This document shows positions 39,462 through 52,290 of a stretch of 64,000 bases of DNA, one piece after another. The notes under the pieces were generated by a model. The model saw only the letters and a list, made by a program, of their open reading frames with translations. It was not told the DNA's origin and made no database searches. Location: the NCBI RefSeq assembly GCF_001908375.1, contig NZ_CP017244.1, positions 1,860,001-1,924,000 on the forward strand, written 5' to 3'. The stretch is from Rhizobium etli 8C-3 (lineage in GTDB: Bacteria; Pseudomonadota; Alphaproteobacteria; Rhizobiales; Rhizobiaceae). Each line of letters opens with the position of its first letter. Position 1 is the stretch's first letter. The translations under genes and the position numbers were made by a program.

Positions 39462-40385
39462 CTAGAGCGTCCAGTCCTCCCAACTTTGGACTTCGCCAGT
39501 TTTATCCTCGCGGCAAATCGCTTCGAGCGCCAAAGAGGCACGACTAGAGTGCCGTTGTTTATGCCGCAGAATTGCAAATTGGCGGGACGGCAGAGGAAAG
39601 CGCGCCTTTACCAGCAAACCTTGAGCAAGGAGGGGCGCGGCTACTGCTCCCGACACGACTGTCGCGCAGATACCCTCTCTTGCTGCAGATATTATCGCCT
39701 CGTTCGACGGCAGCTCAAGCGCAACAGCCAGATCTCCAGGACTTATTCCCGCATTGGAAATCGCGGTCTCGAAAGCCGCTCGGGTTCCGGAGCCCTTTTC
39801 TCGCATGACCCATTTTGTGCCCGAAACCAGATCCGCGGGTAGAACCGGTTTGCCAGTTGCCCAAGGATGGCGCGGACCGACGACAACAAGGAGTTCGTCT
39901 TCAGCGAGAGACTGGAAAGACAGCGCCGGCTCCTCGACGCCGCCTTCGACGAAACCGACTTCGGCCAATCCATCGACAACCGCCCTTGCCACCGTGGTCG
40001 TGTTGCCGATCATCAGTTTAAGGTCGATGCCCGGGTAGCGGATCTTGAAACGCATCAGCATCGCGGGTATCCAATAGCTCGCAATGGTCTGGCTCGCGAA
40101 AACGACGAGTTCACCTTTTTGCAACCCACCAAGATCGGACAAGACGAGCGCTGCAGTCCTTGCACGGGCAAGCGTCGCCTTTGCCTCTCCGAGAAACACC
40201 CGCCCTTCATATGTAAGCTCTATGCGGCGTCCGACGCGATGGAAAAGTTCGACGCCATAAGAAGCCTCGAGATTGCGGATTGCCGAGCTGACGGCGGATG
40301 GCGTGAGGCCGATCACCAAGGCGGCCTTGGTCAGATGCTCGCGTTCTGCAACAGCGACAAAAATGGAAAGCTGCTCGAAAGTCAT
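39462..40385 (-). CDS. LysR-family regulator (YeiE/CysB-like)
   Basis: 307 residues. HTH TFEQLSIFVAVAEREHLTKAALVIGLTPSAVSSAIRNLEASYGVELF; effector domain VVFASQTIASYWIPAMLMRFKIRYPGIDLKLMIGNT and KWVMREKGSGTRAAFE, the CysB/Cbl/YeiE pattern. Divergent from the yeiH-like gene by about 100 nt, the same arrangement as E. coli yeiE-yeiH, so it most likely controls that exporter. Confidence 0.92.
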   Translation of the reverse strand: MTFEQLSIFVAVAEREHLTKAALVIGLTPSAVSSAIRNLEASYGVELFHRVGRRIELTYEGRVFLGEAKATLARARTAALVLSDLGGLQKGELVVFASQTIASYWIPAMLMRFKIRYPGIDLKLMIGNTTTVARAVVDGLAEVGFVEGGVEEPALSFQSLAEDELLVVVGPRHPWATGKPVLPADLVSGTKWVMREKGSGTRAAFETAISNAGISPGDLAVALELPSNEAIISAAREGICATVVSGAVAAPLLAQGLLVKARFPLPSRQFAILRHKQRHSSRASLALEAICREDKTGEVQSWEDWTL

Positions 40386-40486: not shown

Positions 40487-41503
40487 ATGCTCGTGTCAGC
40501 CTTACCGTTTCCTTCAGCCCTGCCGGGATTTGTCCTTTGTGCCGCGATCGCGCTCGCTGCGCATCTCGCCGAGCAATTGCAGATGATGATTTTGGGCGTG
40601 CATTGGATTGAGGGGCTCGTGTTTGCCATTCTGGTCGGCATCGCCGTTCGCTCCTCGGTTTGCCTGCCGCAGAGTTTCATTCCCGGCATCCAATTCGCCG
40701 CCAAGACGCTTCTGGAGATTGCGGTGGTGTTGCTGGGGGCCTCGCTCAGCGTGCCTGCAGTCCGGCAGGCTGGACTGCCGCTTGTCGGCGGAATTGCCAT
40801 TCTGGTTGCTCTGTCTTTGGCAACCGGCTTTCTTATAGGGCGCCTCTTGGGGCTCTCGAACTGCCAGGCGACGTTGGTTGCTTGCGGTAACTCGATCTGT
40901 GGCAACTCTGCAATTGCCGCCGCAGCGCCCGTAATCGGCGCAAAACCGGACGACATCGCGGCATCGATAGCCTTTACCGCGCTGCTTGGCGTCGCTGCAG
41001 TTCTGACGCTGCCGCTTCTTCCCATGCTCTTTGGTCTCAATGCCGTACAATATGGCGTTTTCGCAGGACTGACGGCTTATGCGGTCCCGCAGGTATTGGC
41101 GGCCACGGCCTCTGCCGGAGCCGTCAGTACCCAGGTGGGCACGCTCGTCAAACTGATCCGCGTGATGATGCTCGGACCCGTCATCCTCGTGCTTGGCGCC
41201 ATTCATGGCCGCCGTCTTGGCGGCCCCGCAGTCAGTCTTCGCCATATTCTTCCGTGGTTCATCATCGGTTTTGCAGCCATGGCGGCGCTTCGCTCCCTGA
41301 ATGCCATCCCGGCCTCCCTGCTCTCCGGCATGTCAACTGTTTCCACCGGCTTCACCGTCACCGCCATGGCCGCTCTGGGCCTCTCCGTCGATATTCGGTC
41401 GAGCGTCAAGACCGGCAGCCGGGTACTCGCGGTGGCGGCGCTGTCGCTGTTCGCGCTGGCGGCTCTTGGTTTTTGTCTGATTAGGGTGCTGAAAATTACC
41501 TAA
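40487..41503 (+). CDS. yeiH: YeiH-family membrane protein (putative sulfate exporter family)
   Basis: 338 residues, about ten helices. LEIAVVLLGASLS, VACGNSICGNSAIAAAAPVIGAKPDDIAASIAFTALLG and LVKLIRVMMLGPVI are hallmarks of the UPF0324/YeiH (PSE) family. Relatives lie in sulfonate-degradation clusters and are proposed to export sulfite or sulfate. Divergent LysR regulator upstream; the CoA-transferase operon starts 103 nt downstream with its own operator-like palindrome. Confidence 0.9.
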   Translation: MLVSALPFPSALPGFVLCAAIALAAHLAEQLQMMILGVHWIEGLVFAILVGIAVRSSVCLPQSFIPGIQFAAKTLLEIAVVLLGASLSVPAVRQAGLPLVGGIAILVALSLATGFLIGRLLGLSNCQATLVACGNSICGNSAIAAAAPVIGAKPDDIAASIAFTALLGVAAVLTLPLLPMLFGLNAVQYGVFAGLTAYAVPQVLAATASAGAVSTQVGTLVKLIRVMMLGPVILVLGAIHGRRLGGPAVSLRHILPWFIIGFAAMAALRSLNAIPASLLSGMSTVSTGFTVTAMAALGLSVDIRSSVKTGSRVLAVAALSLFALAALGFCLIRVLKIT

Positions 41504-41525: not shown

Positions 41526-41582
41526 CTTGCAAAGATTCCGGTTGCCCTAGAATCGATCAGCAGCTAACCTGTATATACAGGT
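41526..41582 (+). promoter_or_regulatory. Promoter with HutC-type palindromic operator
   Basis: CTTGCA (41526-41531), 16-nt spacer, TAGAAT (41548-41553); then the perfect 16-bp palindrome ACCTGTATATACAGGT at 41567-41582, 23 nt before the CoA-transferase ATG. The TGTATATACA core resembles sites of HutC-type GntR/UTRA repressors, and one is encoded as the fourth gene of this operon. A site just downstream of the predicted transcription start would block elongation. Confidence 0.65.
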
Positions 41583-41605: not shown

Positions 41606-43156
41606 ATGCGGATCATCTCTTCACAGCAAGCTGCGGATCTTCTCCAAGATGGGATGACTGTCGCTGCTTCGGGTTTTGGAGGATGCTGCCATCCTGAAGC
41701 CATCACGGCCGCGGTCGAGGAGCGCTTCCTCGCCTCGGGAAAGCCCCGCAATCTGACGCTTCTGTTTGCTGCCAGTACGGGCGATCGCCAGACCCGCGGC
41801 ATGGGCCACTTCGGCTATGAAGGCTTGGTCGCCTGCGTGATTGCTGGAGGATGGCGGGGAACGCCGCGCCTTGGAAGGCTTGCGGTCGAAGGAAAGATCG
41901 ACGCGCATTGCTGGCCCCAAGGAGTCATCGCGCAGCTCTATCGGGCGATCGCCGCCGGTCAGCCCGGCGTGGTTACCCATATCGGACTCGGCTCTTTCAT
42001 GGATCCGCTTCATCACGGCGGTCGCATGAATTCGACGACATCGCGTCCGCTCGTAGAGCGTGTGTCGTTGCGCGGCAAGGAATGGCTGCTTTATCCGGCG
42101 ATGCCGCTCGACTGCGTGCTCTTGCGCGGTACGACGGCCGACGAAGACGGCAATATCGCCCTTGAGGACGAGGCCTTCCCACTCGACGTGCTCGCCATGG
42201 CACAGGCCGGCAGAAATTCCGGTGGTATCGTCGTCGTGCAAGTCAAGCGGATTGCCGAGCGCGGCTCGCTGCAGCCGAACGATGTACGTATCCCGGCAAT
42301 GCTGGTCGATTATGTCGTCGTCTGCGAAGATCCGGCCCAGCACGGCATCAGCTTTTCCGAGACCGACAATATCGCCTATACAGGGCGCGTCCGGATGGCG
42401 GTGAACCGCCTCCAGCCGGCGCCACTATCGGTCGATAAAGTTATCCAGCGACGTGCCTTCCTGGAGCTGGCGCCGCTGAACTTTCCGACGGTCAACCTCG
42501 GCATCGGCATTGCCGCTGGGATCGGCCGTATCGCGAGCGAAGAGGCATTCGAGGATTATACGGTGACGATCGAATCCGGCGTAATCGGCGGCGTGCCGGC
42601 CGAGGAACTGTCCTTTGGCGCCGCCATCAATCCGACAGCCATCGTCACGCAGGCATCGCAATTTGACTTTTACGATGGCGGTGGTCTCGATATCGCTTTT
42701 CTCGGTATGGCCGAAGTAGATAGGCATGGCGCGGTCAACGTCAGCCGCTTCAATAATTCTATCGTCGGGGTTGGCGGATTCACCAATATCTCGCAGACAG
42801 CCAAGCGCATTGTCTATCTTGGCACATTTTCGGCTGGTGGCGCGCAAATTGCAGTCACCGACGGCAGGCTCGACATCGTGCAGGACGGAAGCCTTTGCAA
42901 GATCGTCGATGATGTCGACCAGATCAGTTCGAGCCCAGCCTTTGCGCCGGAGGACCAGTTGCAGCTCGTCGTCACCGAGCGGGCTGTCTTTCATGTGATC
43001 GAGGGATGCCTGACGTTGACGGAGTTTGCCCCCGGTATCGATCTTTCCGCCCATGTTCTCGACCGTCTGCCGAAAGGCGTCGCGGTGTCGGACCAACTGA
43101 GGCAAATGGATGCGCGCCTGTTTTCGACCAATGCGATGAAGGATTTTTTCCAATGA
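41606..43156 (+). CDS. Family I CoA-transferase (YdiF / propionate CoA-transferase type)
   Basis: 516 residues. Fused alpha-beta family I CoA-transferase: N-terminal DLLQDGMTVAASGFGGCCHPEAI, GLGSFMDP, DCVLLRGTTADEDGNIALEDEA, then the beta half with the catalytic Glu323 in TIESGVIGGVP and QFDFYDGGGLDIAFLGMAEVD. It moves CoA from acetyl- or propionyl-CoA to a carboxylic acid. Within this operon it would activate the unsaturated acid made by the lyase. First gene of the operon, downstream of the palindromic operator; its stop overlaps the SDR start. Confidence 0.92.
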   Translation: MRIISSQQAADLLQDGMTVAASGFGGCCHPEAITAAVEERFLASGKPRNLTLLFAASTGDRQTRGMGHFGYEGLVACVIAGGWRGTPRLGRLAVEGKIDAHCWPQGVIAQLYRAIAAGQPGVVTHIGLGSFMDPLHHGGRMNSTTSRPLVERVSLRGKEWLLYPAMPLDCVLLRGTTADEDGNIALEDEAFPLDVLAMAQAGRNSGGIVVVQVKRIAERGSLQPNDVRIPAMLVDYVVVCEDPAQHGISFSETDNIAYTGRVRMAVNRLQPAPLSVDKVIQRRAFLELAPLNFPTVNLGIGIAAGIGRIASEEAFEDYTVTIESGVIGGVPAEELSFGAAINPTAIVTQASQFDFYDGGGLDIAFLGMAEVDRHGAVNVSRFNNSIVGVGGFTNISQTAKRIVYLGTFSAGGAQIAVTDGRLDIVQDGSLCKIVDDVDQISSSPAFAPEDQLQLVVTERAVFHVIEGCLTLTEFAPGIDLSAHVLDRLPKGVAVSDQLRQMDARLFSTNAMKDFFQ

Positions 43157-43959
43157 AAATCGATGGAGCAGCCATCATCGTCACGGGCTCGGCAACCGGC
43201 GTCGGGGCTGCATGCGTGAAGCAATTCGCCAAGGGCGGTGCCCGGGTGGTCGTCAATTACAGTCGCAGCAAAAAAGAGGCTGACGAGACGGGCGATATCT
43301 GCCGCAGTCTGGGCGCGCAGGTCGAGGTCGTTCAGGCTGATGTTGCCGATGACGCGGCTTGCCGTCGGATGGTCGCGACAGCCGTCAATCGATGGGGACG
43401 GCTCGACGCATTGGTGAACAATGCCGCAATGACCCTCAAGTCCGATCCTTTCGATCTGGAGACACTGTCAGCCGCAGATTTTCAGAACGTTTTCGGGGTC
43501 AATGTCATCGGCGCATATCAGATGTGTCGGGCGGCGGTGCCTGCGATGCGTAACAGCGGCGGCGGTGCGATCGTCAATGTCTCATCCAACGTTGCCTTTA
43601 CCGGGGGCGGCAGCTCACTTGCCTACACGGCCTCCAAAGGCGCGCTCAATGCACTGACTTTGGCCTTGGCGCGCACCTGCGGTCCCGATATCCGTGTGAA
43701 CGCGGTTTGTCCCGGAATCATCGACACTCGCTGGATGCGCGACACACTCGGGCCAGATGCCTATGGAGCCGTTGCCAAGCGATTTTCGGAAACCGCGCCG
43801 CTCGGCCGTGTTGCAACACCGGAAGATGTTGCAGGCGCCATTGTCTGGCTTGTTCACGGTGCAGACTTTGTCACTGGCGAACTGCTTTCGATTGACGGCG
43901 GAATTCGTCTGTCAGGTGGCGTTCGCAAACCCGCTACATCTGCGGGAGCCGCAAATTGA
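43153..43959 (+). CDS. SDR dehydrogenase in the CoA-ester cassette
   Basis: 268 residues from ATG 43153, overlapping the CoA-transferase stop (ATGA). TGSATGVGAACVKQF (NAD(P) loop), DALVNNAA, Ser in VNVSSNV, YTASKGAL, and CPGIIDTRWMRD. In a CoA-transferase/hydratase context the expected reaction is oxidation of a 3-hydroxyacyl-CoA. The loop TGSATGVG differs slightly from TGxxxGIG. Confidence 0.9.
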   Translation: MKIDGAAIIVTGSATGVGAACVKQFAKGGARVVVNYSRSKKEADETGDICRSLGAQVEVVQADVADDAACRRMVATAVNRWGRLDALVNNAAMTLKSDPFDLETLSAADFQNVFGVNVIGAYQMCRAAVPAMRNSGGGAIVNVSSNVAFTGGGSSLAYTASKGALNALTLALARTCGPDIRVNAVCPGIIDTRWMRDTLGPDAYGAVAKRFSETAPLGRVATPEDVAGAIVWLVHGADFVTGELLSIDGGIRLSGGVRKPATSAGAAN

Positions 43960-44807
43960 TGGTTTCGGCTCAATCCATCCTCGACTTTCCAGTGCCGGAA
44001 GCGACGCAAGTGGTTAGCGCAAGGGATGCCATCCTTTACGCCCTCTCGGTTGGTTACGGCACGGTCGCGATTGGCGATGAGGTACTGAAATACGTCTATG
44101 AACGCGATCTCGTGACCGCGCCGACCCTTGCCAATATCGTGGCGCACCCTGGCCCATGGATGCAGCAGACGGGCGTCGACTGGACACGTTCGGTGCACTC
44201 CGAACATCGCCTGGCGATCCACCGCCCGGTTCCCGTCGATGTGCCCCTAATCTCTCGTTCACGCGTTTTATCGGTGGTCGACCGGGGCATTGAAAAAGGG
44301 ATGTTCGTCAGCTTCGAGCGCCTGATCGCAACCGCTGACGGCAATCAGCCAGTTGCAACGATCGTCCAGACAAATGCGTGCCGGAGCGACGGTGGATGCG
44401 GATCGGCGGGATCTAGCCCTGAACCGTTGTCCAAGGTGCCGGACAGAAAGCCGGACTTCGAATTCAATATCGACATCCCGGAAAACGCCGCCCTGCTTTA
44501 CCGTCTGAACGGAGATCTCAATCTGCTGCATGTCGATCCGCAGGCAGCCCGCAAGAGCGGCTTTGCCCGACCGATCCTGCACGGGCTGTGCAGCTTCGGC
44601 TATGTAGGTTACGCCATCGTCGCTGCCATCGATCCAAGCATGGCTACGGGGCTAAGCTCGATCGCAGCGCGTTTCACCGCGCCGATCTTTCCCGGCGAAA
44701 CGATCACCTTGCAGATATGGCGTAACGACGTCGAGTTGCGCTTCAGGGGCCTCGTTACTCTGCGGGGTGCTACCATCCTCGACAATGGTATCGCGAGGTT
44801 GTCATGA
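43959..44807 (+). CDS. MaoC-type enoyl-CoA hydratase (hydratase 2)
   Basis: 282 residues from ATG 43959 (TGATG overlap with the SDR stop). Two hot-dog domains: an N-terminal decayed one (DEVLKYVYERDLVTAPTLANIVAHPGPW) and a catalytic C-terminal one with NGDLNLLHVDP, the hydratase-2 Asp/His pair, then SGFARPILHGLCSFGYVG. As in peroxisomal MFE-2 hydratases it adds water to trans-2-enoyl-CoA to give (R)-3-hydroxyacyl-CoA. It fits between the CoA-transferase and the SDR chemically. Confidence 0.9.
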   Translation: MVSAQSILDFPVPEATQVVSARDAILYALSVGYGTVAIGDEVLKYVYERDLVTAPTLANIVAHPGPWMQQTGVDWTRSVHSEHRLAIHRPVPVDVPLISRSRVLSVVDRGIEKGMFVSFERLIATADGNQPVATIVQTNACRSDGGCGSAGSSPEPLSKVPDRKPDFEFNIDIPENAALLYRLNGDLNLLHVDPQAARKSGFARPILHGLCSFGYVGYAIVAAIDPSMATGLSSIAARFTAPIFPGETITLQIWRNDVELRFRGLVTLRGATILDNGIARLS

Positions 44808-45571
44808 CGAAAGCGGTCAAACCGGCCACCGGCGAAGCGCGCCAGTATATACGGATCAAGGAGCAGATCCTGGCTGACATCGCCGAGGGCAGGCTTCAGC
44901 CGGGTGACCGGGTATCGTCTGAAAGCGAGCTCGTGGCGGCATTCGGGGTCAGCCGCATGACGGCGAACCGGGCGCTGCGGGAGTTGATGTTCGAGGGTGT
45001 TCTCAAGCGGTCGGCCGGGATCGGAACGTTCGTGTCACCGAAGCACCTCGACGTGGATCTGCTGCAAATTCGCAACATAGCCGACGAAATACTTGAACGG
45101 GGGCACAAGCACAAGGCGGCGATCGTCGCGGCCGGCTTGATGAAGGCGGATGCCAACGTTGCCGATGCGCTTGAACTGGCCCTCGGCGCCGAAGTGATGC
45201 ATTCGCTGATCGTGCATATGGAAAACGACCAACCCATTCAGGTCGAGGAGCGCTATGTCAATCCCTTGATCGCGCCTGACTACTTGTCGACCGACTTCCA
45301 CAGCATGACGCCGCACGAATATCTGACGAAGGTGGCTCCGATAACAGCATTCGAACATATCGTTCAGGCCGTCAAACCGGATACGGCAGTACGCAAATAT
45401 CTTGGCCTGAAGAACGATTACCCCTGCCTGCGGGTCTTTAGAAGAACCTGGTCAGGTGAGGCCGTCGTGACCTGTGCGCTGTTGTACTATCCCGGCGCGC
45501 AATACCGGCTGGAAGCACGGTCTACCAAGGGTCCTCCTAAACCCGTCGCCATTCTCGGAGAGAAACAGTGA
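44804..45571 (+). CDS. GntR-family regulator with UTRA domain, HutC subgroup
   Basis: 255 residues. GntR wHTH at about 15-80: YIRIKEQILADIAEGRLQPGDRVSSESELVAAFGVSRMTANRALRELMFEGVL; UTRA ligand domain with SLIVHMENDQPIQVEERYVNP and TWSGEAVVTCALLYYPGAQYRLEARS. HutC senses urocanate; the ligand here is probably the acrylate-type product of the neighbouring lyase. Encoded inside the operon it would control through the palindrome at 41567-41582. ATGA overlap upstream, GTGA overlap downstream. Confidence 0.92.
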   Translation: MTKAVKPATGEARQYIRIKEQILADIAEGRLQPGDRVSSESELVAAFGVSRMTANRALRELMFEGVLKRSAGIGTFVSPKHLDVDLLQIRNIADEILERGHKHKAAIVAAGLMKADANVADALELALGAEVMHSLIVHMENDQPIQVEERYVNPLIAPDYLSTDFHSMTPHEYLTKVAPITAFEHIVQAVKPDTAVRKYLGLKNDYPCLRVFRRTWSGEAVVTCALLYYPGAQYRLEARSTKGPPKPVAILGEKQ

Positions 45572-47073
45572 GCGCCATCAACTCTCCATCGATCACGTTC
45601 AGCGCGGCACCGCCGACGATCGAGGATATCGCAGCGGTTGCCCGTCGTCACGCAAAGATCGAGATATCCGCCTCGGTCGAAGCCCGGATTGCGGCCGCCC
45701 GAGCCGTCGTCGATCGCTATACGGAAAGCGATCTGCCGGTCTACGGCCTGACAACAGGACTTGGCGCGGGTGTCGATACACGACTTGCGATGGAAGATCT
45801 GGTGGCGTTCCAGATGCGTGTGCCGCAAGCCCGCTCGGTCGGTGTCGGAAAACCGCTTGCAAAGGAATCCGTGCGGGCGATGATGGCCGTGAGGGCAGCC
45901 GGAATGGCGGCGGGCGGTTCCGGTGTCTCACCGAGTGTCTTCCACGGTCTGATCGCCGCCATCAATGCAGGTGTTCACCCTGTCGTACCCTCACTGGGTT
46001 CCATCGGTGCAGCGGATTTGGCTCCGCTTGCTCATATGAGCCGGGGGCTTCTGGGCTTTGGCGATATCGAGCTCGGCGGCGAAGTGCTGCCAGCCGGTAT
46101 CGCTCTTGAAAGAGCGGGCCTGAAGCCGCTCGAACTAGCACCCAAAGACGGGCATGCGCTCGTCGTGGCCAACAGCCTCTCCGTCGGCCTTGGCTGCTTG
46201 GCGCTCGAAGACATCGAGCGGCTCTTCGGTTGGTCCCTTAAGGCGATTGCCATCAACTTTGAAGCGTTCCGGGCCAATGTCAGCGCCTTCGACGACCGCG
46301 CTTTGGCTGCGAGGCCGGCCTTTGGACAGCGCCAAATCGCCGCTGAACTCATGGAGATCCTTTCGGGCAGCTCCTTGCTTGCTGGAGAAGCAGCACGACG
46401 CCTCCAGGACCCCCTGAGCTACCGCTGCGTACCACAGGTCTGGGGTGCATTGAGGCATGCGATTGATGAAGCAAGACAAGCGACGGAAATCGAACTCGTC
46501 AGTTCCAGCGACAATCCTGTTGTCATCGCATCTGAGGGTGTCATCCTTTCCCACGGCAATTTTGACATGACGGCTTTTGTGCTCGCCTGGGAAAGGCTGG
46601 GGCAGGCCATGGCGCATTGCGCGGCAGGTACCGCCTATCGGATCATCAAGATCATGTCGCCGGCCATGTCCGACCTCCCCCGCTTCCTGACGCCAATGGG
46701 CCAGAGCCGCACGGGGTTTGCGACCGTGCAAAAGACTGTCTCGGCTATGGAAGCCGAAGTTCGCCATCTGGCCATGCCGATTTCGTTTTCGCCCATTCCT
46801 GTTGCCGATGGCGTCGAAGATCAGGCATCAATGGCTCCGAGCGTCTTGGCAAAGACGCAGGCAATCATCGAGCGCCTTCGCTATCTGGTCGCCATCGAAC
46901 TGATCGCATCGGTACAGGCCGTCGACCTGCGAGGCGTCTCAGGCGAATTGGGTAAGGGATCGGCAAAAGCCTATGCGTTTGTGCGCGACCACGTCGCCGC
47001 TCTTGAAGAGGATCGCGCACAAGGGCCGGATTTTGCAACGATTGCCGCATTGATCGGGCTCGGCCCGCAATAA
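45568..47073 (+). CDS. Histidine-ammonia-lyase-fold protein lacking the MIO triad
   Basis: 501 residues, the size of HutH, aligned over most of its length. The MIO cofactor is made from Ala-Ser-Gly in GxxGASGDLAPL; here the segment is GSIGAADLAPLAH (A148-A149-D150), one residue short with no Ser, so MIO cannot form. The catalytic His of HutH (in LSHAAG) is Arg89 (QARSVG), and EDHVSM is EDQASM (E417 kept). Tyr59 (VYGLTTGLG) and RC in SYRCVPQVWG are kept. Ergothionase is a known relative that expels trimethylamine without needing MIO, so a betaine amine-lyase is my best guess. GTG start overlaps the regulator stop. Confidence 0.88.
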   Translation: MSAINSPSITFSAAPPTIEDIAAVARRHAKIEISASVEARIAAARAVVDRYTESDLPVYGLTTGLGAGVDTRLAMEDLVAFQMRVPQARSVGVGKPLAKESVRAMMAVRAAGMAAGGSGVSPSVFHGLIAAINAGVHPVVPSLGSIGAADLAPLAHMSRGLLGFGDIELGGEVLPAGIALERAGLKPLELAPKDGHALVVANSLSVGLGCLALEDIERLFGWSLKAIAINFEAFRANVSAFDDRALAARPAFGQRQIAAELMEILSGSSLLAGEAARRLQDPLSYRCVPQVWGALRHAIDEARQATEIELVSSSDNPVVIASEGVILSHGNFDMTAFVLAWERLGQAMAHCAAGTAYRIIKIMSPAMSDLPRFLTPMGQSRTGFATVQKTVSAMEAEVRHLAMPISFSPIPVADGVEDQASMAPSVLAKTQAIIERLRYLVAIELIASVQAVDLRGVSGELGKGSAKAYAFVRDHVAALEEDRAQGPDFATIAALIGLGPQ

Positions 47074-47124
47074 GCCCGGTTAGCCACTGCCACGACAAGA
47101 AGGGCAGGGCGCCGAGTGGTCATG

Positions 47125-47153
47125 CTGACGGTCAAACTGGAAGGTACCGTCAG
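47125..47153. promoter_or_regulatory. 8-bp inverted repeat upstream of the binding-protein gene
   Basis: CTGACGGT (47125-47132) and ACCGTCAG (47146-47153), perfect arms with a 13-nt loop, 36 nt before the binding-protein ATG at 47189 and 52 nt after the lyase stop. Could be an mRNA hairpin or an operator for a second promoter. Confidence 0.45.
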
Positions 47154-47188
47154 TCCGTTCGCTGAAAAGTCAACCAGAGGGAATGATC

Positions 47189-48076
47189 ATGAAAAATTGG
47201 ACAAAAGGTATCCTTGCAGCCGTCATCGTGACAGCCGCCATGTTCCAGGCTGCATCCGCACAGACCATCAAGGTCGGCAGCAAGAATTTCACCGAGCAAT
47301 TTATTCTCGCCGAAATGTATGCCGCCGTTTTGGAAAATGCCGGTTTCACCGTCGAGCGAAAGATTAACCTGGGCGGCACGCTGATTGCACATCAGGCACT
47401 GGTGGCAGGCGAGATCGATCTTTATCCGGAGTATACCGGCACGGCTTTGGCTTCTGTCGTCAAGGGTGAGATGTCGACCGATGCCGACAAGGTCTATACG
47501 CAGGTCAGTGACTTCTACGCCAAGCAGTTCAACCTCACTTGGCTGAAGCCGAGCGGCATCAACAATGGTTATGTCATTGTGGTCCGGCAGGAAACGGCGC
47601 AGGCCAACAATCTTAAGAGCCTGTCTGATCTCGCCAAGGTTTCCAAGACCCTGGTCTTCGGGGGCGGTGCTGAGTTTCCAGATCGCGCCGATGGCCTGCC
47701 CGGCCTGAAGCGCGTCTACGACGCGGAATTCAAGGAGTTCAAGCAGTTCGCCAAGCTTGGTCTTCGTTATGACGCGCTGGAACAAAAGGACATCGACGTC
47801 GCCAACGGCGCGGCGACCGACTGGCAGATCGGCTCGAAGAAGCTCGTGCCGATGGCAGACGACAAGGGTCTGTTTCCCCCTTATTACGTGGCCCCTGTTG
47901 TCCGCCAGGACGTAGTGAAGACCAATCCGAAGGTTGCCGAACTCCTGGAAGCGGTCGGATCCCATTTGGATAATGAGAAAATGAGGATCCTCAATGCCAA
48001 GGTCGAGACCGATCACGAGGAATCCGAGGACGTGGCGGTAGCCTTCCTCAAGGAAAACGGCCTGCTGCCGAAATAA
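47189..48076 (+). CDS. Quaternary-amine-type ABC transporter substrate-binding protein (OpuC/OsmX-like)
   Basis: 295 residues from ATG 47189, 7 nt after AGAGGG. Signal peptide with cleavage after ASA (near residue 24), then TIKVGSKNFTEQFILAEMYAAVLENAGF, the defining opening of glycine betaine/choline/carnitine binding proteins, and EIDLYPEYTGTAL. Same family as ergothioneine-binding EgtU domains. First gene of the importer half of the cassette; a strong hairpin follows its stop. Confidence 0.92.
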   Translation: MKNWTKGILAAVIVTAAMFQAASAQTIKVGSKNFTEQFILAEMYAAVLENAGFTVERKINLGGTLIAHQALVAGEIDLYPEYTGTALASVVKGEMSTDADKVYTQVSDFYAKQFNLTWLKPSGINNGYVIVVRQETAQANNLKSLSDLAKVSKTLVFGGGAEFPDRADGLPGLKRVYDAEFKEFKQFAKLGLRYDALEQKDIDVANGAATDWQIGSKKLVPMADDKGLFPPYYVAPVVRQDVVKTNPKVAELLEAVGSHLDNEKMRILNAKVETDHEESEDVAVAFLKENGLLPK

Positions 48077-48106
48077 TTGTGACACCCTACGTCCGGGTAT
48101 CACTCC

Positions 48107-48132
48107 GGCCGCCGCCTGGCGCGGCGGCCCTT
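48107..48132 (+). terminator. Strong hairpin after the binding-protein gene
   Basis: GGCCGCCGC (48107-48115) / GCGGCGGCC (48121-48129), perfect 9-bp stem, 5-nt loop, followed by CTTTC. It would lower expression of the downstream genes relative to the binding protein or stabilise its mRNA. Confidence 0.55.
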
Positions 48133-48193
48133 TCATAGTATTTATTCGAAATTCCTTTGTCAGCAGCCGGACAGGAATGTGGAGAAGCGGAAA

Positions 48194-49198
48194 ATGCAGG
48201 AAATCTGGATCGACTATCTCAACGCCCTCGATGCCAAGGCGCTGGCGCTGACCAATGACGAGATTCTCGATGCGGTGTCGAAGGCGCTGGAGGCACAGGG
48301 CAGAGGCGAAACCGTCCTCGAGCCGCGGGTTCATCTTGTGCCGGAGAGCTCCGACAAAGGCCATTTCAACGTGCTTCGCGGATATGTCAAAGCGCTGAAC
48401 TATGCCGGCGTAAAAGTCGTCGGCGATTTCGTCGACAACTACAAGGTCGATCTGCCTTCAGAGCTTGCGGTCCTCAACCTGTTCGATCCGAACACGGGCG
48501 TGCCGAAGGCTGTCATCGATGCAACTGCAATAACCGACATGCGCACCGGCGCCGTGACCGCGCTTGGTGCAAAATATCTGGCGCGCAAGGACAGCAAAAT
48601 ACTCGGGCATATTGGTGCCCGCGGAACCTCCTACTGGAATGTCCGGCTGCTCGATCATCTCTTCGACTTTGATGAGATCCGCGTACACTCGCGCCGCCCG
48701 GAAAGCCGTCATGCCTTTGCAGAACGGCTTGAAACCGATCTCGGCAAGAAGATCATCGTCACCGACAACTGGGAGGATTGCCTCAAGGATGCCGATGTGA
48801 TGGTCGAGGCAAGCCGCCTGCCGGAACCGGCGCCGCTATTCAAGACGGGATGGGTGAAGAAGGGAGCTTTCGTGGTGCCTTATGGCACGATGAGTGCCCT
48901 TGAATTCGATCTGACCGATATCATGGACAAGGTCGTCGTCGACGATTGGGGACAATGCGGCCCCGGTAAACCTTTCGGAGCGCTTCGCCGTCACGTCGAT
49001 GAGGGCAAGTTGACGGCCGAGAATCTGCATGCCGAAATCGGCCAGATCGTCTGCGGCATGAAAGCCGGCCGCGAAAATGACGAGGAGACGATCCTGTTCT
49101 GGCACCGCGGCCTTAGCACGACGGACGTGGCGCTCGGCGCCGCCATGGTCAACAAAGCAAGAGACATGAACATCGGCCAGCGCCTGCGGTTCGCGTAG
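48194..49198 (+). CDS. Ornithine cyclodeaminase / mu-crystallin family protein
   Basis: 334 residues from ATG 48194 (GGAG nine bases ahead; GTG 48179 also open). HFNVLRGYVKALNYAGVKVVGDFVDN, DATAITDMRTGAVTALGAKYLAR (family T-x-R-T segment), the nucleotide-fold segment ILGHIGARGTSYWNVRLLD with GxGxxG altered to HIGARGTS, and MSALEFDLTDIMDKVVVDD. Family members reduce imines or cyclise ornithine with NAD(P). The altered nucleotide loop makes the cofactor uncertain. Sits inside the importer gene set. Confidence 0.85.
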   Translation: MQEIWIDYLNALDAKALALTNDEILDAVSKALEAQGRGETVLEPRVHLVPESSDKGHFNVLRGYVKALNYAGVKVVGDFVDNYKVDLPSELAVLNLFDPNTGVPKAVIDATAITDMRTGAVTALGAKYLARKDSKILGHIGARGTSYWNVRLLDHLFDFDEIRVHSRRPESRHAFAERLETDLGKKIIVTDNWEDCLKDADVMVEASRLPEPAPLFKTGWVKKGAFVVPYGTMSALEFDLTDIMDKVVVDDWGQCGPGKPFGALRRHVDEGKLTAENLHAEIGQIVCGMKAGRENDEETILFWHRGLSTTDVALGAAMVNKARDMNIGQRLRFA

Positions 49199-49203
49199 TT
49201 GCC

Positions 49204-50022
49204 ATGATCATGTCCAAGCCAATCGCCTCTTCGAGAATGTATAATCTCAGTCCGCGCATTCGCGGGCTGTGGGATGCACTGTTTAAGCTCGTCAGCATGA
49301 ATTCCAAAATCGAGTTCGAGATCATTGCTCATGCGGCGCCAGCACCCTTGTCGGAATTATGGACAAGGTCGGATATTGGTCTGGTCTTCATCTGCGGCTA
49401 CCCGTTTTCGCGCATGCCGGAGGGCGCAAGACCGACTGCCCTTGCCGCACCTGTCTCGAGCGAGGCATGGTCTTCGGACCAGCCGCTCTATGCCAGCCAC
49501 ATCGTCGTCGCCTCCACCGGACCGGTCAACACGGTGGCGGATCTCGCTGCGGCACGCTGGGGCTGGACCGTGCGCGATTCCCAATCGGGCTATCACGCGT
49601 CGCGATCCTACCTCGCCGGCCAGTTCACGGGCAAGATGAAGCAGAGCGCGGCGGTTGGACCGCTGCTCAACCCTTCAGGCATCGTTGCAGCCCTCAAGGA
49701 TGGTAGGATCGAGGCAGGCGCCATCGACGCTTACGCCTTCCAATTGTTGTCGATGCATGAACCCGACGCGATCGATGGTCTTCGCATTCTTGTGACGACC
49801 GAGCCTACTCCAGCTCCCCTATTGGTCGCCGCACAGACATTGCCCGGGGACATGGTAGCGGCATTGCGGCGGAGCCTCGTGACGTTGCATGAAACGCCTT
49901 GCGGAACGGCGGTTCTGGGTGCACTCGGCCTCAGGCGATTTTCGGCAGTCGCTGCGTCGGACTACGATGTTCTGCCGCCGAGGGCCGAAGCCGCCGATCG
50001 CAGATTGGGGATCAAATGGTAG
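49204..50022 (+). CDS. PhnD-like binding-fold protein without signal peptide
   Basis: 272 residues. DIGLVFICGYPFSRM, PLYASHIVVASTGPVNTVADLAAARWGW, DSQSGYHASRSYLAGQF and DGRIEAGAIDAYAFQLL match phosphonate-binding (PhnD, PF12974-type) proteins. No signal peptide (MIMSKPIASSRMYNL), so a cytoplasmic or regulatory role is likely. It lies between the OCD-family gene and the permease genes, and the importer already has its own exported binding protein. The start has a poor SD. Confidence 0.75.
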   Translation: MIMSKPIASSRMYNLSPRIRGLWDALFKLVSMNSKIEFEIIAHAAPAPLSELWTRSDIGLVFICGYPFSRMPEGARPTALAAPVSSEAWSSDQPLYASHIVVASTGPVNTVADLAAARWGWTVRDSQSGYHASRSYLAGQFTGKMKQSAAVGPLLNPSGIVAALKDGRIEAGAIDAYAFQLLSMHEPDAIDGLRILVTTEPTPAPLLVAAQTLPGDMVAALRRSLVTLHETPCGTAVLGALGLRRFSAVAASDYDVLPPRAEAADRRLGIKW

Positions 50023-50061
50023 ACGGTGGCGAACCAGCGCCCGGGCACGGAGGTCTCGATC

Positions 50062-50694
50062 ATGAAATGGGTTCCTAAACACCTCGACCGGCTGCTCGAA
50101 GCGCTGCTGGAGCACCTGTATCTCGTTTTTTCATCAGTCGGGATTGCCCTCGTGATCTCGCTGATCGTCGGGATATGGGCTGCAAGGCGGCCTCGGAGTT
50201 TTGCAGCTATCGTCGTCTTGACCGGTATCCTGTTCGCCGTGCCGAGCCTGGCGCTGTTTGCGCTTCTCATTCCCGTCATGGGTATCGGGGCGGCACCCGC
50301 CATTACCGGACTTGCCGCCTATTCGCTGATGATCCTTATCCGCAATATCGGCATGGGGTTCCAGGCTGTTCCGCGTGACGTACTAGAAGCCGCCGATGGC
50401 ATGGGCTACGGCACAGCGCGCAGGATATGGGAAGTCGAGCTGCCACTGGCCATGCCTTATATTATCGGCGGCATCCGCATTGCCATGGTGACGGTGATCG
50501 GCATTGGCACCGTTGCCGCCTATATCAATGCCGGCGGCCTCGGCGTCATCATATTCGAAGGCATCGATCAGCGATTTCCCGAGAAGATCATCGCAGGCGG
50601 GCTGCTGACGTCATTTCTGGCGCTCTTTGCCGACTATTTTTTTGCATCGTTCGAAAAGCTGTTGCGTCGTCGCAGTGGAGGTAAAGCAGCATGA
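50062..50694 (+). CDS. Quaternary-amine-type ABC transporter permease (OpuCB-like), first
   Basis: 210 residues from ATG 50062 behind GGAGG (50049-50053); a GTG at 50026 is unnecessary. Five or six helices; LLIPVMGIGAAPAITGLAAYSLMILIRNIGMGFQAVPRDVLEAADGMGYG carries the EAA loop. Pairs with the next permease. Confidence 0.93.
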   Translation: MKWVPKHLDRLLEALLEHLYLVFSSVGIALVISLIVGIWAARRPRSFAAIVVLTGILFAVPSLALFALLIPVMGIGAAPAITGLAAYSLMILIRNIGMGFQAVPRDVLEAADGMGYGTARRIWEVELPLAMPYIIGGIRIAMVTVIGIGTVAAYINAGGLGVIIFEGIDQRFPEKIIAGGLLTSFLALFADYFFASFEKLLRRRSGGKAA

Positions 50695-51326
50695 TCGTCA
50701 TCGATGCAATGAGCTGGATCTTCAACAACTCCGGCGTCTTCTTCAACGCTTTCAATCGCCATCTTCTGATGTGCGTCCTGTCGCTCGGCATAGGCTTTGT
50801 CATTGCCGTGCCGCTCGGATTTTCCGTCGCACGGGCACCTCGCGCCGCCTTTGCGGTGATCAATATTGCCGGTGCTCTGCGCTCCATACCGAGCCTTGCT
50901 ATCCTGTCGGCAACGATGCCGTTTCTCGGCATCGGATTGTTGCCGTCGATCATTGCCCTCGTCGTCCTTGCCGTGCCGCCGCTGCTGTTGAACACGATCA
51001 TCGGCATCCGCGAGATCGACACTTCCGTAATCGATGCTGCAAATGGAATGGGCATGAGCGCCGGGCAGATGCTGCGGGAAATTGAACTTCCTCTGGCCGT
51101 TCCGTCGATTCTGTCAGGCGTCAGGACGAGTGCGATCCAAGTCATCGGCGGTGCGGCGTTGGCCTCCTTTATTGGCGGCGGCGGACTTGGCGATTTCATC
51201 AATGCCGGCATTGCAATCATGAACATGCCGCGCCTTCTTGTCGGAGCGGTTCCGATAGCCCTGCTCGCAATCTTTGCGGAATTGGCGTTCAGCGCTCTGG
51301 AGCGCGTCTTCACTCAACGGCGCTAA
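50691..51326 (+). CDS. Quaternary-amine-type ABC transporter permease, second
   Basis: 211 residues. ATG overlaps the previous stop (ATGA). LRSIPSLAILSATMPFLGIGLLPSIIALVVLAVPPLLLNTIIGIREIDTSVIDAANGMGMSAGQML contains the EAA-type loop; IQVIGGAALASFIGGGGLGDFINAGI is typical. Two different permeases, as in OpuB/OpuC/OsmYW systems. Confidence 0.93.
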   Translation: MIVIDAMSWIFNNSGVFFNAFNRHLLMCVLSLGIGFVIAVPLGFSVARAPRAAFAVINIAGALRSIPSLAILSATMPFLGIGLLPSIIALVVLAVPPLLLNTIIGIREIDTSVIDAANGMGMSAGQMLREIELPLAVPSILSGVRTSAIQVIGGAALASFIGGGGLGDFINAGIAIMNMPRLLVGAVPIALLAIFAELAFSALERVFTQRR

Positions 51327-51345
51327 GCGGCCAAAAACGGATGTC

Positions 51346-52290
51346 ATGATGATCTATCTCGATCATGTTACCAAGAATTACGACGGAAGCGGCCAGCATG
51401 CGGTCGATAATCTCGATCTCTTGATCGACACCGGTACGACGGTTGCCATGATCGGTCCTTCGGGCTGCGGCAAGACCACGACCATGCGCATGATCAATCG
51501 GTTGGAGACGCCCACGACGGGACGCGTGCTGGTCGATGGCAGAGATATCGCCGGCGTCGATCAGAAAGACCTACGGCGCAGCATCGGGTATGTCATTCAG
51601 CAAGTTGGTCTATTTCCGCATATGTCGATCGCACGCAATGTCGCAACCGTGCCGCGCCTTCTTGGCTGGGATAAGAAGCGCAGTGATCGCCGGGTTGACG
51701 AGCTCCTCGATCTCGTAGGCCTTGATCCGGCCATCATGCGGCAGCGCCTGCCACACGAATTGTCAGGCGGCCAGCGTCAGCGCGTCGGGTTCGCGCGCGC
51801 TCTCGCCGCCGATCCCGCAATCATGCTGATGGACGAGCCGTTCGGTGCGATCGATCCGATCACCCGCATTCGACTTCAGGACGAGTTCCGCGATATTCTC
51901 AGGAAGGTGAAGAAGACAGTGGTCATCGTCACGCATGACCTCGACGAGGCAATCAAGATGGGTGATCGCATTGCGATCATGCGCGATGGCCGTCTTCTCC
52001 AATATGATACACCGCAAGAGATTCTTGCACGTCCCATCAATGAATTTGTCGAGAATTTCCTCGGCCCCGACCGAGCCATAAAAAGGTTGAGCTTGATCCC
52101 CGTATCGATGATCATGACCACGCCGGAACCATTCAAGGGGGAAGCCGAGATCGCCGCTGATGCCACTGTTCACGACGCCTTGGCGCTCATCCTGTCCGGC
52201 GAGATGCCAGGTCTCCACGTCAGAGCCGCCAACGGAACACTTGCTGGATTTCTGTCTCGTGACACCCTATTACGCGCCAATCGGCTCTAG
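51346..52290 (+). CDS. Quaternary-amine-type ABC transporter ATPase (OpuCA/OsmV-like)
   Basis: 314 residues. Walker A GPSGCGKTT, Q-loop GYVIQQVGLFPH, signature LSGGQRQRVGFARAL, Walker B IMLMDEPFGAIDP, H-loop VTHDLDE. The C-terminal 60 residues (AADATVHDALALILSGEMPGLHVRAANGTLAGFLSRDTLLR) look like one CBS-type module; OpuCA proteins often have two. Start ATG 51346 (or 51349). Last gene of the cassette. Confidence 0.92.
   Translation: MMIYLDHVTKNYDGSGQHAVDNLDLLIDTGTTVAMIGPSGCGKTTTMRMINRLETPTTGRVLVDGRDIAGVDQKDLRRSIGYVIQQVGLFPHMSIARNVATVPRLLGWDKKRSDRRVDELLDLVGLDPAIMRQRLPHELSGGQRQRVGFARALAADPAIMLMDEPFGAIDPITRIRLQDEFRDILRKVKKTVVIVTHDLDEAIKMGDRIAIMRDGRLLQYDTPQEILARPINEFVENFLGPDRAIKRLSLIPVSMIMTTPEPFKGEAEIAADATVHDALALILSGEMPGLHVRAANGTLAGFLSRDTLLRANRL

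Follow-up and report, generated by a model that had tools for sequence, protein, structure and literature searches.

The described enzymes closest to the protein considered here are HutH, the histidine ammonia-lyase (HAL) of Pseudomonas putida (PDB 1gkj/1b8f), in which an Ala-Ser-Gly triad makes the electrophilic methylidene-imidazolone (MIO) cofactor, and the ergothionase of Treponema denticola (PDB 6s7j/6s7q). The pocket pair of residues in such enzymes is Phe-Leu in phenylalanine ammonia-lyase, His-Leu in tyrosine ammonia-lyase and Ser-His in HAL. The ergothionase structure was reportedly described by Maurer (2019), and ergothioneine sulfonate is said to have been dealt with by Yan (2022). 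In an excerpt of PMC13405746, ergothionase is described as generating trimethylamine and as having no MIO. The window analysed here is the whole of a 64,000-nucleotide stretch of Rhizobium etli 8C-3 (contig NZ_CP017244.1, positions 1,860,001 to 1,924,000; source genome of 7.3 Mb on four contigs), and it contains a gene for a HAL-fold protein without the MIO triad (the lyase; Table 1). Judged by its sequence, the lyase is related to ergothionase.

The lyase and its place among MIO-free enzymes

A profile search matched PF00221 to residues 17-473 of the lyase at 457.1 bits, and this match, together with the open reading frame, confirmed that the gene is intact, as had been stated in an earlier description made from the DNA letters alone (the sequence-only reading). 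Alignment with P. putida HutH was in full agreement with that reading on the missing Ala-Ser-Gly triad, Arg89, the EDQ motif and the retention of Tyr59 and of the Arg-Cys segment. GSIGAA-DL of the lyase (residues 144-151) lies against GSVGASGDL of HutH, such that A148, A149 and D150 correspond to A142, S143 and D145, while G144 of HutH is without a counterpart. Equivalents of Tyr53, Gln277, Arg283, Phe329 and Glu414 of HutH are all present (among them Y59=Y53, R286=R283 with the following Cys retained, and E417=E414). In contrast to HutH, the lyase has E417-D418-Q419 in place of EDH (Q419=H416), R89 (of the A88-R89 pair) at His83 and L283 at Y280. Three further replacements, of Asn195 by V200, L358 by K361 and V386 by K389, had been omitted from the sequence-only reading. 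The predicted model of the lyase (pLDDT 86.6) matched the HutH fold with a TM score of 0.90 using Foldseek.

Conservation was assessed across 121 sequences, namely the query plus the 120 homologues listed out of the 2375 that reached E<=1e-20 (from 7995 scored candidates). No residue was inserted between positions 149 and 150 in any of the 121, and Arg89, Asp150, Lys361 and Lys389 were each found in 121/121, as were Tyr59, Gln280, Arg286, Phe332 and Glu417. At position 149, 117 sequences had Ala and 4 had Gly; at position 419, 117 had Gln and 4 had His; and at position 200, 119 had Val. The dN/dS of the lyase against five relatives was 0.097-0.163. As the deletion is shared by all 121 sequences and dN/dS is low, sequencing error or decay was ruled out; the sequence-only reading had also considered decay unlikely. 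Loss of the MIO triad and of HutH N195 would also be expected of a pseudoenzyme or binding protein without lyase activity, kept for regulation or complex formation; this is very improbable in view of the five invariant active-site residues and the dN/dS of 0.10-0.16, and ergothionase, as far as the excerpt cited above describes it, shows such an active site to be workable.

Proteins of this clade are frequently labelled histidine ammonia-lyase or hutH in public records, and the label would suit an ordinary histidine or tyrosine ammonia-lyase. Against this stand the missing triad, a score of 383 bits with the hutH equivalog model TIGR01225 (cut-off 539.15) and a separate Ala-Ser-Gly-bearing HutH elsewhere in the genome, immediately adjoining HutU. 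Ordinary histidase was rejected on these grounds, as in the sequence-only reading, and an ordinary ammonia-lyase of either kind has next to no probability.

The best solved relative by sequence was T. denticola ergothionase (270 bits, versus 238 bits for HutH), which also ranked first by Foldseek E-value and is 31% identical to the lyase. In a tree of a 32-row set, the one-residue-deletion class, including ergothionase, occupied one side of a branch with support of 99/96, while the GYL class, with a three-residue deletion, formed a separate group (100/94); the exact places of the T. denticola row, of the row from the ergothioneine (Ert) gene cluster described below and of L110 are unsure because of long branches. 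Ergothionase and the lyase have in common the fold, the absence of MIO, the identical one-residue deletion, a lysine (Lys383 = Lys389, QKT position) and Leu where HutH has Tyr280. They differ in that ergothionase has His at the HutH His83 position where the lyase has Arg89, GEGDI where the lyase has GAADL, and Glu at the HutH 142 position where the lyase has Ala148; moreover, thiourocanate genes were not found in the lyase operon.

Four PF00221 proteins are encoded in the source genome. In addition to the lyase and HutH, there is a GYL-class protein near ABC genes resembling a polar amino-acid transporter (such transporters, sugar-type transporters, hutI/hutG-like genes and moc-like genes were named by eye throughout) and near a gene passing the cut-off for N-methyl-L-tryptophan oxidase, and an MIO-free protein with GSIGCADIGL (L099:14317-15900; 28% identity to the lyase). 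Neighbours of the latter scored above NCBIfam cut-offs (second value) for thiourocanate hydratase (1058.7, 930), thiohydantoin desulfurase (603.8, 440), hydantoin-5-propionate amidohydrolase ErtD (774.2, 600) and ErtE (625.7, 520), and the locus reads as an ergothioneine pathway. Like the lyase, the L099 protein has no MIO, carries the one-residue deletion and has Lys in the aligned region, but it retains His and has thiourocanate/Ert genes as neighbours. None of the NCBIfam matches of the two proteins was ergothionase-specific. No urocanase family gene was found in the window; the genome has two, of which one accompanies the true HutH and the other belongs to the Ert cluster. The lyase is probably not the genome's ergothioneine enzyme, because the Ert genes sit with the other paralogue, and this role was rejected as unlikely. 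The sequence-only reading thus stands as regards an intact gene, the absence of histidase activity and kinship with ergothionase, which the shared deletion and lysine make closer than was visible from the letters alone, but ergothioneine, which it had put forward for assay, is unlikely to be the natural substrate.

The GYL-class lyases (e.g. L101:12096-13646 and L121:1507) are also MIO-free, and the L101 example resembles the window lyase in having an OpuAC-type transporter and CoA-metabolism genes adjoining; unlike the window clade, they retain the S-H pair in the rows examined. In genomes of family f44 a GYL-class gene directly adjoins an MIO-bearing HutH (L121:1507 and 3053; also L122, L133, L134 and L139) or hutI/hutG-like genes (L147), and a hercynine lyase role would fit the GYL-class gene beside HutH. 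Very divergent lyase-fold proteins (25-27%) were also seen near a cyclodeaminase-like gene (L214:13474, L214:15048 and L228:7270), with GMDGE and GAGE at the MIO-triad position.

The operon and a proposed route for betaine breakdown

The operon (41606-52290, + strand) encodes, in order, a coenzyme A (CoA) transferase, a short-chain dehydrogenase (SDR), a MaoC-type dehydratase, a HutC-type repressor, the lyase, an OpuAC-type binding protein, a cyclodeaminase-like protein, a PhnD-like protein, two permeases and an ATPase. Conservation of the clade extends across rhizobial megaplasmids: of 68 plasmid records with a DNA match, 64 of them from Rhizobium, 59 carried 80% or more of the 10.7-kb operon. 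The nearest named relatives of the lyase are also from Rhizobium (R. mongolense, 94% identity). Among 34 window-clade loci (L005-L038), the PhnD-like gene was near the lyase in all 34, the cyclodeaminase-like partner was present in 33 (L031 has the lyase without it), the OpuAC transporter and HutC at >=55% identity in 20 each, and the complete CoA-transferase/SDR/MaoC set in 19. A Martelella plasmid carries HutC, lyase, OpuAC, cyclodeaminase-like, PhnD, two permeases and ATPase, with the CoA genes absent, and in L013 and L021 an apparent sugar-type ABC system adjoins a trio of these genes.

Table 1. Features of the lyase operon and its upstream flank (positions are those of the window)
Feature	Position	Strand	Details
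LysR regulator, YeiE-like	39462..40385	-	Divergent from YeiH; under cut-off
YeiH-type putative sulfate/sulfite exporter, possible accessory	40487..41503	+	TIGR00698 137.5 bits, under 232.6 cut-off
CTGTATATACAG, perfect palindrome, probable HutC-type operator	41569..41580		Upstream of CoA transferase
CoA transferase, YdiF/FadX-like	41606..43156	+	PF01144
Short-chain dehydrogenase (SDR)	43153..43959	+	Profile searches
MaoC / hydratase-2 type dehydratase	43956..44807	+	Profile search
HutC-type GntR/UTRA repressor	44804..45571	+	TIGR02018 278.8 bits, cut-off 220
MIO-free aromatic-amino-acid-lyase-fold protein	45568..47073	+	GTG start, 501 aa, open; hutH annotation in relatives
OpuAC-type periplasmic binding protein, quaternary-ammonium-type ABC transporter	47183..48076	+	Profile search, structure relatives, alignment
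Ornithine-cyclodeaminase/mu-crystallin family partner	48194..49198	+	PYGTMSALE in place of AIGADGPGKQE (archaeal alanine dehydrogenase)
PhnD-like protein	49204..50022	+	PF12974; no signal peptide recognisable by inspection alone
ABC permease 1	50026..50694	+	Profile searches
ABC permease 2	50691..51326	+	Translation, conserved place, orthologue labelled permease
ABC ATPase, ProV-like	51274..52290	+	Profile searches; true start probably near 51346

Removal of an amine from a compound other than ergothioneine is probable, because the lyase has no cofactor, groups with ergothionase and lies in a conserved uptake-and-breakdown operon. We lean slightly towards an MIO-independent amine lyase acting on a non-imidazole amino-acid betaine, from whose alpha carbon it would expel a tertiary amine, with trimethylamine as the likeliest candidate. 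The betaine would be imported through the OpuAC-type transporter, Tyr59 would take the beta proton, and the quaternary amine, already a good leaving group, could depart without covalent activation, the HAL fold and the majority of the conserved active-site residues being retained. The CoA transferase would then turn the enoate into a CoA ester, which MaoC would hydrate and the SDR would oxidise. Control of the operon via the palindrome at 41569 would fall to the HutC-type repressor, with the enoate as its presumed signal. The PhnD-like protein is possibly a cytosolic use of the periplasmic-binding-protein fold.

The substrate class is suggested by the pocket and the transporter. The pocket pair of the window clade is A-R, versus S-H in HAL. 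Comparison with solved structures grouped the binding protein with quaternary-ammonium binders, and nicotine/acetylcholine-sensor and ProX relatives ranked above EgtUC, which makes an EgtU-type ergothioneine transporter less likely. The transporter family and the A-R pocket speak for a betaine whose side chain is not imidazole and may be anionic. In the aromatic cage of quaternary-ammonium binders, as set out in an excerpt of PMC9732360, three of the four aromatic positions are retained by the window protein, all as Tyr.

The repressor exceeded the cut-off of one HutC model (Table 1) and scored 235.1 with a second, PRK14999, under its cut-off of 424. CTGTATATACAG was the sole site in the window at <=1 mismatch (0.01 expected), and YTGTATATACAR had one further occurrence in the genome, within an apparent unrelated coding region. 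Co-occurrence was scored in 41 loci of >=10 kb with the lyase at >=57% identity, which are related to one another: TGTATATACA was present in 22/22 loci with HutC at >=55% identity and in 2/19 loci without (L140 and L239), or in 20/20 and 2/17 distinct loci after removal of the repeats L056, L101, L104 and L107. In L239, an annotated HutC ends 73 bases ahead of the TGTATATACA site.

In R. rhizogenes (L101:8564-18444), a second cassette was found divergent from the window-type cluster, with a TGTATATACA site ahead of each of the two. This cassette encodes an OpuAC-type transporter, a GYL-class MIO-free lyase and, by family-level matches, a CaiB-family protein, a 3-hydroxyacyl-CoA dehydrogenase and an enoyl-CoA hydratase, followed by TmpB/TmpA (trimethylaminoethylphosphonate), both above cut-off.

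A number of observations weigh against the proposed betaine route. VIA-align does not separate ergothionase from HutH or from an aminomutase. The CoA transferase is missing in 15/34 window-clade loci and the OpuAC-type transporter is missing nearby in 14/34. The fourth cage position is Ala in the window protein and its near relatives, and the trimethylammonium cage is therefore incomplete (the position is Phe or Tyr in L112, L177, L239, L241, L236 and L196). Several deep relatives have two flavin monooxygenases (NtaA/DmoA-type) and are without CoA genes, so that either the downstream chemistry differs or the proposed reading is wrong. The cyclodeaminase-like protein is a piece left without explanation in the pathway. 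Lastly, the ten-base TGTATATACA core also occurs at the genome's true hut locus (L160:16770), which speaks for a HutC-type site and also for a urocanate-like signal. Together with the HutC-type repressor of the operon and the hut genes found close to L140 and to L234, it points towards urocanate.

These last points would be accommodated if the enzyme were a lyase of hercynine or of an ergothioneine derivative, with an imidazole side chain and a (substituted) urocanate product passed to hut-type enzymes. The HutC-type repressor with its HutC-like operator and the closeness of ergothionase among solved relatives are consistent with this, as are the L140 cluster, which adjoins hut-like genes with TGTATATACA sites at both, and the presence of HutU approximately 6 kb from the L234 lyase, of HutF adjoining the partner gene in L224 and of HutU in the same place in L215. 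This explanation is nevertheless rather unlikely, since the conservation set has Arg, in 121/121, in place of the His83 that the HutH, ergothionase, Ert lyase and examined GYL rows retain, both urocanase genes lie outside the window, and the Ert cluster has its own MIO-free lyase. In addition, the operon includes CoA genes, for which we know of no role in urocanate breakdown.

The cyclodeaminase-like partner

Cyclodeaminases use an Asp within the GADGPGKQE-type motif for catalysis. YGTMSAxE took the place of this motif in 70 of the 82 complete and distinct relatives of the partner that were fetched (60.7-100% identity), and none of the 82 had the GPGK form. In a family sample of 151 genomes (partner E<=1e-100, lyase E<=1e-80) the partner was present in 10, all of which had a lyase of the window type. 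The two genes were adjacent or in the same operon in 9 of these 10, the exception being G875, while G849 had the lyase alone. Beyond the source genome, lyase identity in this sample fell to 37%, with the partner at 66-73%. In a class sample of 385 genomes (partner E<=1e-100, lyase E<=1e-95) the partner was present in 27 and the lyase in 7, the source genome counting in both, and all 7 had both genes. These pairs were close in 3 (the source genome, G723 and, with the genes facing, G719) and on different contigs in 4. Among 27 other partner loci in the class sample, a window-type lyase lay within 1.5 kb in 3 (L176, L177 and L185), and a fragment of a GYL-like lyase within 1.5 kb in L187. An exclusive pairing of the two proteins was rejected on account of the class sample counts (27/385 versus 7/385) and of L031.

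Of the 31 deletion-class rows in the tree, 23 had Arg and 8 had His at the position of HutH His83. Two of these eight, L153 and L110, have a cyclodeaminase-like partner nearby; a clade at 55% identity (L141, L142, L148 and L238) retains His and has no partner in the vicinity. Separately, in L143-L145 a cyclodeaminase-lyase pair was found convergent to an apparent rhizopine-type (moc) catabolic cluster. Tentatively, the Arg89 lyase and the Asp-less partner might form a two-enzyme module degrading amino-acid betaines, possibly anionic or sulfur-bearing, through which rhizobial megaplasmids would feed on root or nodule betaines. Arg89, standing where other members have a (thio)imidazole-binding His, would then bind the side chain or activate it, enabling a HAL-fold active site to expel the amine without MIO. 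No pathway describing such a module was found in the literature searched.

Genes related to sulfur metabolism may be linked to the locus. A YeiH-like gene was near 14/34 window-clade loci (L005-L012, L025, L030, L032, L033, L036 and L037) and also near L235, and monooxygenases were near L155, L232, L235, L236, L241 and L242, the L155 enzyme having an SfnG score under cut-off. The monooxygenase pair of the deep relatives is seen most clearly in R. acidisoli, where the order is transporter, two monooxygenases, cyclodeaminase-like, lyase and PhnD-like; the R. acidisoli lyase belongs to the deletion class and has G-R as its pocket pair. The sulfur link is no more than suggestive, the YeiH and LysR scores in the window being under cut-off.

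The recurrence of NtaA/DmoA-type monooxygenase pairs and of YeiH/LysR genes near relatives, and the co-occurrence of lyase and partner in the family sample down to 37% lyase identity, where the partner is more strongly conserved than the lyase, would suit a leaving group other than trimethylamine (for instance a secondary amine or opine-like amino acid), or a sulfur or anionic side chain held by Arg89, with the cyclodeaminase-like protein handling the amine or imine. This is quite unlikely, as the transporter family serves quaternary ammonium compounds, the YeiH and LysR assignments fall short of their model cut-offs and a poor leaving group is chemically hard to expel without MIO.

Implications

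No paper on the window clade was recognised in the open-licence literature, among the matches listed, and no description of an MIO-free HAL-fold lyase other than ergothionase was found in the literature searched. A direct test of the proposed betaine route is feasible, because R. johnstonii 3841 holds the operon on pRL12, where RL_RS36655 is the lyase orthologue and RL_RS36665 the partner. If this clade also consists of lyases, the HAL fold would have MIO-free catalysis as a second, general type of chemistry that serves several substrates. Many rhizobial 'histidine ammonia-lyase' annotations would then be wrong, and the operon would represent an unmapped route in the legume rhizosphere that yields carbon, nitrogen and trimethylamine from betaines.

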